A stretch of DNA of 64,000 nt from Streptomyces sp. NRRL B-24484 (GTDB lineage: Bacteria; Actinomycetota; Actinomycetes; Streptomycetales; Streptomycetaceae). The position numbers and the translations under genes were made by a program. Positions 39,518 through 40,674 of this stretch are shown piece after piece. The stretch spans positions 124,001-188,000 of the forward strand of contig NZ_JOAI01000012.1 in the NCBI RefSeq assembly GCF_000717715.1. Reading direction: 5' to 3'. The notes under the pieces were generated by a model, which did not search any database, was not told the origin of the DNA, and worked only from the letters and a program-made list of their open reading frames with translations. Within the stretch, counting starts at the first letter, position 1; every line of letters starts with the position of its first letter.

Positions 39518-39550
39518 CCCGGCGGGCACGGTAGGCGCGGCGGACGTGAC

Positions 39551-39584
39551 GGGGCCCGGGAGCGGTATCCAGCTCCCGGGCCCC
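39551..39584. terminator. Strong bidirectional terminator
   Basis: A perfect 13-bp stem (39551-39563 with 39572-39584) with an 8-base loop. It ends the lipoprotein gene on the plus strand and would also end minus-strand transcription coming through the two tRNA-like RNAs. Confidence 0.8.
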
Positions 39585-39605
39585 TGAGGTGCCACCCAAT
39601 TGCGC

Positions 39606-39743
39606 GCACCGGCACGTTTAAGGCTGCGGATCATCTTCAGAGCCTCGTGTTCTGCCTTTGAACTACCGTGCCACGGTGAGAGGCACAGGCGGGACTTGAA
39701 CCCGCATCCGAGGCTTTCCGTCCGCAGCCGTTCGATCCGGTGC
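39606..39743 (-). ncRNA. Circularly permuted tRNA-like RNA (Gly-like body, CUG anticodon)
   Basis: On the minus strand, pieces of a complete cloverleaf occur in the order 3' half then 5' half. In genomic order: anticodon 3' strand CCTCG (39709-39713), a 3-base variable loop, T-arm GCGGG-TTCAAGT-CCCGC (39689-39705), acceptor CTGTGCC (39682-39688), a 9-base linker, acceptor GGCACGG (39666-39672), TA, D-arm GTTC-AAAGGCA-GAAC (39649-39663), A, then CGAGG (39643-39647) and loop CTCTGAA (39636-39642). Acceptor stem (7 bp, one G-U), D stem, anticodon stem and T stem all pair. The flanks also pair: GGCTGCGG with CCGCAGCC (39722-39729 with 39622-39629) and GCACCGG with CCGGTGC (39737-39743 with 39606-39612). 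The D arm and U discriminator resemble tRNA-Gly. CCA is not encoded. Confidence 0.8.
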
Positions 39744-39749
39744 TCGGCG

Positions 39750-39874
39750 GCGAATGCTGAGACATGAGCGAGAGTCTGAGTTTCAGGGGGCTGCCTCTGC
39801 CGTTTGGGCCACCCCGGCGCGTGGTGCCGGGGGGAGGAATCGAACCTCCACTGTCACCCCTGTGTCAGCTTCAC
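39750..39874 (-). ncRNA. Circularly permuted tRNA-like RNA with encoded CCA
   Basis: Same permuted order as its downstream neighbour. Anticodon 3' strand GGGGT (39856-39860), a 6-base variable loop, T-arm GGAGG-TTCGATT-CCTCC (39833-39849), acceptor CCCCGGC (39826-39832), discriminator A plus CCA (39822-39825), a CGC linker, acceptor GCCGGGG (39812-39818), TG, D-arm GCC/GGC with an 11-base loop including GGCAGA, then GCCCC and loop CTGAAAC (from 39780). The acceptor stem is a perfect 7 bp. The flanks close with GTGAAGCTGACACA (39861-39874) against 39750-39764, one mismatch and one bulge. The 5' half reads as anticodon GAA if the break is at the end of the loop, but the loop is discontinuous, so identity is uncertain. 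Confidence 0.75.
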
Positions 39875-39904
39875 TTTCAGTGTCAGCTTCTGCGCTGTCG
39901 CGCA

Positions 39905-39924
39905 CCCCTCCGCTCAAAGAGGGG
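39905..39924 (-). terminator. Hairpin between the hypothetical gene and the RNA genes
   Basis: CCCCTC and GAGGGG with an 8-base loop, 16 bases after the stop of the gene at 39940. It is weak and could be a processing site or partial terminator rather than a full stop. Confidence 0.4.
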
Positions 39925-39939
39925 GATCGTGGGTCCGGC

Positions 39940-40674
39940 CTACTGGCCGAACAGGTAGCCGAAGACGGCGTCGCCGACGCGCTTGTCGACGACCTCCGCC
40001 GCGTTGGCCTCCTCGCGGGCGAACTGCACGGCCTGCTGCAGCCTCTCGACCCGCTGGACGAGTTCGTTGACCCGCCGGGCCGGCAGCGCACCGGAGAACT
40101 TGACGGTCGTCCAGTACCCGACCGCGATGTCCTCGTAGTACACCTCGACCTGGGCCGGGTGCTTCTCGGTGGCCTCCGCCTTCACGTGGTTGCGGGGGAC
40201 CTTCTTCGTCCGGATGGTGCGCACCGGCTCGGTCTTCCACGCGTCGGTGGAGGCGTCCGGCGTCCAGGACTCGGAGGCGTCCAGCACCGGCAGCTTGCGG
40301 ACGAAGGTGTAGAGGTCGGTGAGCTGCTTCTCCAGGAAGAGCAGGTAGGTGACCGGCACGTCGGTCAGCAGCGGCCGGCCGTCGACCACGACGTCCGCGC
40401 GGGCGGCGCAGTTGGCGTGGTCCTTGGTGGCGGTCACGTCGAACAGCCGGGTGAGCGAGGCGGCGGTGTCGCGCAGGATGTCCTCGGCGCGCACCTGCAC
40501 GCGGGTGGACTCCGGCGGGAGCTGCTCGCCCTCCTCGTCCTTGGGCTGGTACGTGCGGGAGATCCCGGCGAGCAGGGCGGGCTTCTGCAGGCCGTGGTGG
40601 GCCGTCGTCAGCTCCTGGAAGGACTTGGACTTGACGCCCTTTTCGACCGCGATGATCTGGTTGAGTTTCGCCAC
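39940..40674 (-). CDS. Conserved actinobacterial protein of unknown function upstream of the permuted tRNA-like genes
   Basis: 244 residues. It begins MAKLNQIIAVEKGVKSK and continues with a helical region (HHGLQKPALLAGISRTYQPK). The basic stretch RTIRTKKVPRNHVKAEATEK suggests nucleic-acid binding, and the C-terminus is predicted helical (RVNELVQRVERLQQAVQFAREE). No signal peptide or membrane segment. I believe it belongs to an uncharacterised family in actinobacteria (possibly DUF7873), from memory. The GTG at 40674 has TAGCCT 7 bases upstream and no ribosome site: leaderless. The two permuted tRNA-like RNAs begin 66 bases past its stop on the same strand, so the three probably form a unit. 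A role in RNA handling is inference. Confidence 0.75.
   Translation of the reverse strand: MAKLNQIIAVEKGVKSKSFQELTTAHHGLQKPALLAGISRTYQPKDEEGEQLPPESTRVQVRAEDILRDTAASLTRLFDVTATKDHANCAARADVVVDGRPLLTDVPVTYLLFLEKQLTDLYTFVRKLPVLDASESWTPDASTDAWKTEPVRTIRTKKVPRNHVKAEATEKHPAQVEVYYEDIAVGYWTTVKFSGALPARRVNELVQRVERLQQAVQFAREEANAAEVVDKRVGDAVFGYLFGQ

Follow-up and report, generated by a model that had tools for sequence, protein, structure and literature searches.

The window analysed here is a 64,000-nucleotide stretch of Streptomyces sp. NRRL B-24484 (contig NZ_JOAI01000012.1, positions 124,001 to 188,000), with positions counted from its first letter. In the roughly 300 bases behind a gene of the DUF7873 family, an RNA is predicted that consists of two tandem, circularly permuted heads resembling transfer RNA (tRNA), each placed on a long irregular stem. 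We interpret the locus as a DUF7873 gene together with a two-headed tRNA-mimic scaffold of the Y RNA type that has no conserved anticodon and has the DUF7873 protein as its likely partner, and we give this joint interpretation a probability of about 60%. Observed are the layout of the unit, the fold of both heads as seen in covariation and folding energy, the link with DUF7873, the absence of a conserved anticodon and a design that resembles that of Ro-linked Y RNAs, whereas the role of the particle is a matter of interpretation.

Layout and fold of the two heads

The initial annotation of this DNA had described one unit on the minus strand, at 39606–39743, as a permuted tRNA-like gene with a CUG anticodon loop. 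Direct reading with scripted coordinates confirms the order that it gave, with the T arm and the 3' acceptor strand ahead of the 5' acceptor strand, the D arm and the 5' strand of the anticodon stem. The head itself (head B, 39713–39643) starts with the 3' strand of the anticodon stem, CCTCG (39713–39709), and continues through the T arm, GCGGG-TTCAAGT-CCCGC (39705–39689), the acceptor 3' strand (39688–39682), an apical loop of sequence TCTCACCGT, the acceptor 5' strand, GGCACGG (39672–39666, the first base being 39672), and the D arm, GTTC-AAAGGCA-GAAC (39663–39649), to the 5' strand of the anticodon stem, CGAGG (39647–39643). The set of pairing arms is complete, as had been claimed: the acceptor stem forms 7 base pairs (bp) including one G-U, and the D, anticodon and T stems all pair. 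The nested helices that were said to prolong the anticodon stem are also present. The stem is extended by 2 bp and is followed by a 9-bp helix (39729–39721 with 39630–39622) and by an outer helix of 6 bp (39742–39737 with 39612–39607), to which one more G-C pair at 39743/39606 can be added, so that the domain as originally drawn, with its internal loops, is closed by 39743–39737 and 39612–39606.

This description was correct for head B and incomplete for the unit as a whole, as it missed both the adjoining DUF7873 gene (39940–40674, minus strand) and a second permuted head. Head A (39860–39787, minus strand) has the same order of parts, lies about 145 bases upstream of head B, and was located by a permuted-head detector, scripted coordinates and folding, with covariation to match. 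It comprises the 3' strand of the anticodon stem (39860–39856), the T arm (39849–39833), the acceptor 3' strand (39832–39826), an apical loop ACCACGC (39825–39819) that begins with ACCA, the acceptor 5' strand (39818–39812), the D arm (39809–39793) and the 5' strand of the anticodon stem (39791–39787), and its acceptor stem is a perfect 7 bp. The 5' strand of the head A stem (39886–39865, minus strand) carries the tetranucleotides CTGA, CTGA, GTGA and CTGA spaced by 6 nucleotides and pairs in part with positions 39760–39756. These positions belong to a conserved linker (39786–39743, minus strand), whose TCAGC at 39760–39756 pairs with GCTGA at 39887–39883 and thereby closes the head A stem.

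Both cloverleaf bodies and their stems appear when 39900–39606 is folded alone; the minimum free energy is −130 kcal/mol (z −3.65), and none of 200 shuffled sequences folded as low. Across the 64-kilobase (kb) window, the detector returned five matches with at least four anticodon-stem pairs. Two of them are the heads, with scores of 20.2 and 20.7; the other three lie on the plus strand and score 17.2. A chance origin of the permuted heads was rejected on the evidence of these folding-energy shuffles and of the detector controls given below. Standard tools pass over the region: ARAGORN reports no tRNA gene in the 64-kb window, and Rfam at its own cut-offs finds no match there.

Covariation and stem pairing

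To examine covariation, the locus in the window was aligned with 60 loci from actinobacteria on the basis of sequence, without structure. From this alignment RNAalifold recovered, unprompted, the outer helices and, in either head, the stems of the acceptor, T and D arms, with 26 of 65 pairs changed on both sides. The structure as drawn, with 61 pairs, has a covariation score of 0.278, compared with 0.125 ± 0.004 for shuffled alignments, none of which in 500 reached the observed value; slid versions of the structure scored at most 0.103. In homologues, then, the arms that had been proposed from the window alone covary, this being the case for the acceptor, T, anticodon and outer stems, and in the 9-bp helix of head B eight of the nine pairs carry changes on both sides (alignment A3). 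The closing helix of head A (39887–39883/39760–39756) and the head A D stem exhibit no two-sided changes in the alignment and are backed by conservation only.

The anticodon stems are paired in only 36% and 50% of cells in the alignment. This is taken as a problem of register, because when 108 distinct heads were paired in free register a full anticodon stem was formed in 61% of them with their own strands and in 8% (at most 16%) after strands had been swapped between loci. Among diverse heads, all seven acceptor pairs are compensated both in A (35 sequences) and in B (25 sequences); these heads were picked by their pairing, so percentages taken from them are biased upward and the compensations less so.

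The long stems were subjected to similar swaps. The longest helix between linker and tail, which is of the type that closes head B, measured 8.4 with a locus's own strands and 6.8 with swapped ones (39 loci, highest swap 7.6). Between the upstream strand and the linker, own pairing in 32 phage and viral loci gave −21.5 kcal/mol, against −17.5 kcal/mol for swapped strands (lowest swap −18.7), while 48 actinobacterial loci gave no difference (own −31.4, swapped −31.1, lowest swap −31.6), perhaps reflecting the fact that both strands vary little there. YTNA words recur at a 6-base period in the upstream strand, with 58 pairs of such words compared to 2.1 ± 1.5 after shuffling in 33 loci from phages, viral contigs and one bacterium; the period is weaker in the linker (8 versus 2.0) and in the tail (8 versus 1.3). 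The idea that the periodic YTNA words form a pure protein-binding code is weakened by the better pairing of the phage and viral upstream strand with its own linker than with swapped ones.

Anticodon and acceptor end

The heads were compared at the positions that would matter for decoding, the triplet at 34–36 being read by keeping seven bases as the loop. The 75 distinct A heads show 27 different triplets and the 65 distinct B heads show 24, and the CUG to which the initial annotation had given meaning does not hold up; a working tRNA-Gln(CUG) was rejected for this reason. At the other end of the molecule, C74 is found in 67/75 A and 63/65 B heads, a pyrimidine at position 75 in 66/75 and 63/65, and C at position −3 in 71/75 and 56/65, respectively. 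A full CCA is present in 39/75 A heads and in only 10/65 B heads, and in the B heads the discriminator and the first base vary. The retention of C74, Y75 and C−3 is compatible with either an apical loop motif or an RNase P site.

These features bear on the possibility that the heads are made into working tRNA along the lines of the algal pathway. RtcB or a comparable ligase would seal the transcript at its anticodon end, RNase P would open it at the acceptor, and CCA addition and charging would follow. When reordered by script, the two window heads are called tRNA-Phe(gaa) and tRNA-Gln(ctg) by ARAGORN, and the frequency of C74 would agree with such a pathway. Against this, a full CCA is scarce and the discriminator and first base are inconstant in the B heads, and the anticodon ends are embedded in long stems. 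Since the triplet varies as it does, with 24 kinds among 65 distinct B heads, a working tRNA is considered very unlikely. The circularly permuted tRNA genes of algae and archaea keep their anticodon and yield working tRNA. The units described here share with them the placement of the 3' half before the 5' half and a closing sequence between the acceptor strands, and differ from them in that the anticodon triplet is not conserved.

Another comparison is with transfer-messenger RNA (tmRNA), including its two-piece permuted form, in which the anticodon stem is replaced by a long helix and a tRNA-like acceptor half is served by a dedicated protein. The long helix in place of the anticodon stem and the tRNA-like acceptor half have counterparts here, and DUF7873 would be the candidate for the dedicated protein. 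In contrast to tmRNA, there are two heads rather than one, and G3-U70, the identity pair for alanine, occurs in neither window head, the third acceptor pair being C-G in both. The Rfam tmRNA model has no match in the window at its gathering score, nor in 39550–39950 at E values up to 1, and no tmRNA reading frame was seen on inspection by eye.

Linkage to DUF7873

The gene at 39940–40674 encodes a protein of 244 residues that matches PF25283 over residues 1–242 with 399.8 bits (E 6.6e-120; gathering score 27 bits), and it is the likely source of a protein partner. Both heads lie downstream of this gene, and no part of the locus other than the RNA and the gene is conserved. The protein is 57% identical to its counterpart in Arthrobacter phage Racecar, and the family is large, 7356 of the 7998 database proteins scored having an E value no higher than 0.001; it is present in 73 phage records (nine genus names) and four plasmid records. 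Three Arthrobacter phages and three Streptomyces plasmids contain DNA similar to this locus, and no feature is annotated beneath the match in any of them, two of the plasmid records being nearly unannotated. AlphaFold gives a confident model for DUF7873 (predicted local distance difference test score, pLDDT, 93.4; predicted template modelling score, pTM, 0.68), with long helices and two long neighbouring strands. This model has no confident fold match in the PDB or among viral models, a profile search of the PDB gave weak matches only (best E 0.055), and comparison with PHROGs and NCBIfam gave none at E 1. The case for the protein rests on linkage because its fold has no confident relative.

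The detector was applied to as many as 900 bases downstream of DUF7873 genes with a cut-off of 18.4, using the best 80 of 559 confirmed genome loci and the best 80 of 310 confirmed viral loci. At least one head follows DUF7873 in 80/80 genome loci (both heads in 60), 68/80 viral loci (both in 29) and 12/13 other loci (both in 10), and the two heads recur in actinobacteria, in Streptomyces plasmids and in phages of Arthrobacter, Gordonia, Rhodococcus, Pseudanabaena and Klebsiella. Among the other loci, Vibrio and Rhizobium phages have one head and a Microcoleus phage has none. In controls on the 167 loci with at least 600 bases, the detector gave no matches on the reverse strand, none after dinucleotide shuffling and two in upstream stretches. 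Covariance models add eight viral loci and so bring those with a candidate head to 76/80, the ARAGORN check having covered only part of these; in the remaining four (L147, L148, L175 and L185) neither the detector nor the covariance models found a convincing head. Gene and RNA can also be arranged differently, as the two heads lie upstream of DUF7873 in one viral contig (L193) and downstream on the opposite strand in another (L199).

Sixty genomes of the same genus were covered by both the DNA search and the protein search. In 41 of these genomes DUF7873 is accompanied by the RNA, which was scored as present from a DNA match with an E value of at most 1e-50, and 19 have neither. In one of the 19 (G055) an 83-base remnant of the RNA, corresponding to positions 189–271 of the query, persists at C1:399860–399942, which suggests loss of the pair. 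A single copy of DUF7873 was found in each of 49/69 same-genus genomes; across the phylum 11/396 genomes and 2/246 genera are positive. With 1.5 to 3 kb fetched around each locus, the genes that flank the pair in the window recur beside it in a minority of cases, the dehydrogenase gene for example in 11/29 same-genus and 5/80 other genome loci. The pair likely moves as a cassette, because the flanking genes of the window accompany it in so few loci. A genome from a related family (G062) has two DUF7873 genes (L244 and L248), both accompanied by RNA heads; one of the genes is truncated where the fetched stretch ends. Of 14 control genomes, Deinobacterium chartae alone has DUF7873 and alone has the TROVE domain of Ro proteins, which is a single case.

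In 89 phage and viral loci, which had been selected for DUF7873, no other neighbouring family occurs in more than 12, reads of the same gene in other frames excluded. Several of the phage loci sit within tRNA arrays, and this fits a role in tRNA metabolism during infection. It would also agree with an origin of the heads as phage decoys that soak up a host enzyme attacking or modifying tRNA and so shield the phage tRNA arrays, bacteria having kept the unit for defence of their own tRNA. The patchy spread across genus and phylum points in the same direction. Without a conserved anticodon, however, the heads would be poor bait for an anticodon nuclease, and DUF7873 is the sole constant neighbour in the phage and viral loci, host loci not having been scanned for defence genes. 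That most of the genus has kept the unit also speaks for a lasting role, and taken together these points make a decoy unlikely.

Relation to YrlA and other Ro-associated RNAs

YrlA is reportedly a tRNA-like bacterial Y RNA of Ro60/Rsr particles. The initial annotation knew of no established permuted case in bacteria, and this statement has to be withdrawn, as permuted tRNA mimicry is already known there from the Ro60-linked YrlA: in the portion of PMC11472068 that treats it, the Ro-linked bacterial Y RNA of PDB entry 6CU1 is superposed on tRNA with a circular permutation. Passages of PMC8394870 describe a basal stem that holds Rsr and a tRNA-like domain that binds PNPase and is modified by DusA and TruB, and passages of PMC7790460 suggest that YrlA might competitively inhibit an anticodon nuclease. 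The Rfam model of YrlA (RF02553) aligns end to end on head B (39727–39621) with 36.9 bits, below the cut-off of 69. Two further RNAs, one near the TROVE gene of the window genome (L243, 39.2 bits) and one from a related family (L250, 46.7 bits), also fall below 69, so the YrlA cut-off does not discriminate in this setting. A mimic, which had been one of several options for the product named in the initial annotation, is supported.

The heads described here and YrlA have in common a head rooted at the anticodon stem and hence permuted, an acceptor closed by a short loop, tRNA-like T and D loops, a long basal stem and a reported presence in both bacteria and phages. They differ in that the present units have two heads per conserved region and are tied to DUF7873 rather than to Ro, carry YTNA words spaced by 6 nucleotides and a CTTAAACG tail in their stems, have an apical loop with conserved C74 and Y75, and in the window score far below the Rfam cut-off, as do the two Ro-type RNAs scored alongside. 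Phages have been proposed to carry Y RNAs or Ro-like proteins, namely Listeria phage CKA15 (in the relevant part of PMC12282133) and Vibrio phage pir03 (likewise in PMC7765460). In those proposals, as far as the cited portions go, the partner is a Ro-like protein, whereas here it is DUF7873, and 36/40 phage records with this gene have no TROVE match.

The shared design and the score of head B raise the question of whether the RNA is a true YrlA that is bound by the cell's own Ro/Rsr (TROVE) protein, with the DUF7873 gene as a helper or an accidental neighbour. A TROVE gene does exist in the window genome. Its sole match, however, is on contig C23 (190606–190788), the window RNA being on C12, and it has a YrlA-like RNA of its own about 1.3 kb away. 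TROVE was matched in only 4 of 40 DUF7873-bearing phage records, some of which are fragments, and no TROVE match was found in 9 of the 49 same-genus genomes with DUF7873, while the RNA and DUF7873 go together in 41/41 same-genus genomes that have either. The RNA is not filed as YrlA despite its like design because no Ro gene adjoins it and because these 9/49 genomes and 36/40 phage records are without TROVE, and we consider a Ro-bound YrlA to be quite improbable.

Models built only from the present heads also gave three classes of further matches, which are TROVE-near RNAs, tandem tRNA genes and a lone unit (L221). Among the matches listed, at least 73 same-genus matches of model R1 lie outside DUF7873 loci, and 29 of these, in 23 genomes, are within 2 kb of a TROVE gene; Rfam matches these TROVE-near RNAs to YrlA, below its cut-off. 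In the window genome the corresponding region (L243, C23 191000–193000) carries a pair of YrlA-like permuted heads upstream of TROVE, some 240 bases from each other, and twin matches near TROVE are present in genomes G003, G012, G021, G024 and G036 as well.

Ordinary tRNA genes as look-alikes

Two ordinary tandem tRNA genes that have decayed could imitate a permuted unit by chance. Such genes do attract the models: of 18 loci fetched outside the DUF7873 loci, 17 contain ordinary tRNA genes and 15 contain at least two, and ARAGORN reads head A with bases upstream of it as a tRNA in 22/140 genome units. In the window itself ARAGORN calls no ordinary tRNA half, in keeping with the initial annotation, for which one upstream of the T arm would have been a serious objection. 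Ordinary tRNA calls overlap 0/22 other units and 1/97 viral units, head B lies outside all 22 genome calls, and the Rfam tRNA model backs none in the 12 of those 22 loci that were tried; at Rfam cut-offs there is no tRNA support in L218 either. Covariation of the outer helices likewise argues against this origin, which is rejected for the window with next to no probability left to it, yet models R1 and R2 often pick up tandem ordinary tRNA genes as false positives.

The 22 ARAGORN calls (L050, L052 and L064 are examples) extend over the upstream strand and the 3' half of head A, and in 12 of them the assignment is Phe(gaa). They are a likely source of false tRNA annotation, and some may already stand in public annotation. 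The lone unit L221 (genome G146, C107, 124415–124485) resembles a permuted tRNA-Arg; its acceptor strands are 5 bases apart, and a 6-bp closing helix can be made out by eye. The 3 kb fetched around it contain no DUF7873, and no ordinary tRNA was called. It may be what is left of an att site or a genuine permuted tRNA.

Possible role and significance

For the proposed scaffold of a DUF7873 protein and a two-headed mimic, we envisage by analogy with Y RNA particles that the protein would bind the stems, taking the place of Ro. The two heads would then present the elbow and acceptor surfaces of tRNA to tRNA-handling enzymes, for instance those that modify tRNA, RNase P, or PNPase or another nuclease, and the particle might either tether such an enzyme or compete with real tRNA for it. 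A wider proposal, to which we give somewhat less than even odds, is that of a Ro-independent class of tRNA-mimic particles common to actinobacteria and to phages of actinobacteria, cyanobacteria and proteobacteria. DUF7873 would in that case be a new RNA-scaffold protein, and the RNA a two-headed adaptor whose two anticodon-less tRNA bodies, held side by side, could join two tRNA-handling enzymes or fill two neighbouring tRNA sites.

No description of a two-headed permuted tRNA mimic tied to DUF7873, and no paper naming DUF7873, was found in the literature covered, subscription papers and bioRxiv being mostly outside its scope. If the proposed scaffold is correct, permuted tRNA mimicry would be a design that has been reused with another protein, beyond Ro60 particles, in a family of thousands, and DUF7873 would gain a first testable function. 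The phage arrays that contain the pair raise the question of whether a phage-borne tRNA look-alike redirects host tRNA enzymes. For annotation the lesson is twofold, in that permuted heads evade tRNA finders and tandem tRNA genes mimic permuted heads.

Two minor observations can be added. The genome search gave repeated 40-base matches at query positions 214–254, of which only the window genome's own (L002) was inspected; it resembles coding sequence and was put down to chance. Beyond head B, at 39584–39551 on the minus strand, an inverted repeat read directly from the DNA forms a GC-rich hairpin that is a possible terminator of the RNA and that the 3' hairpin of RF02760 matches weakly and in part.
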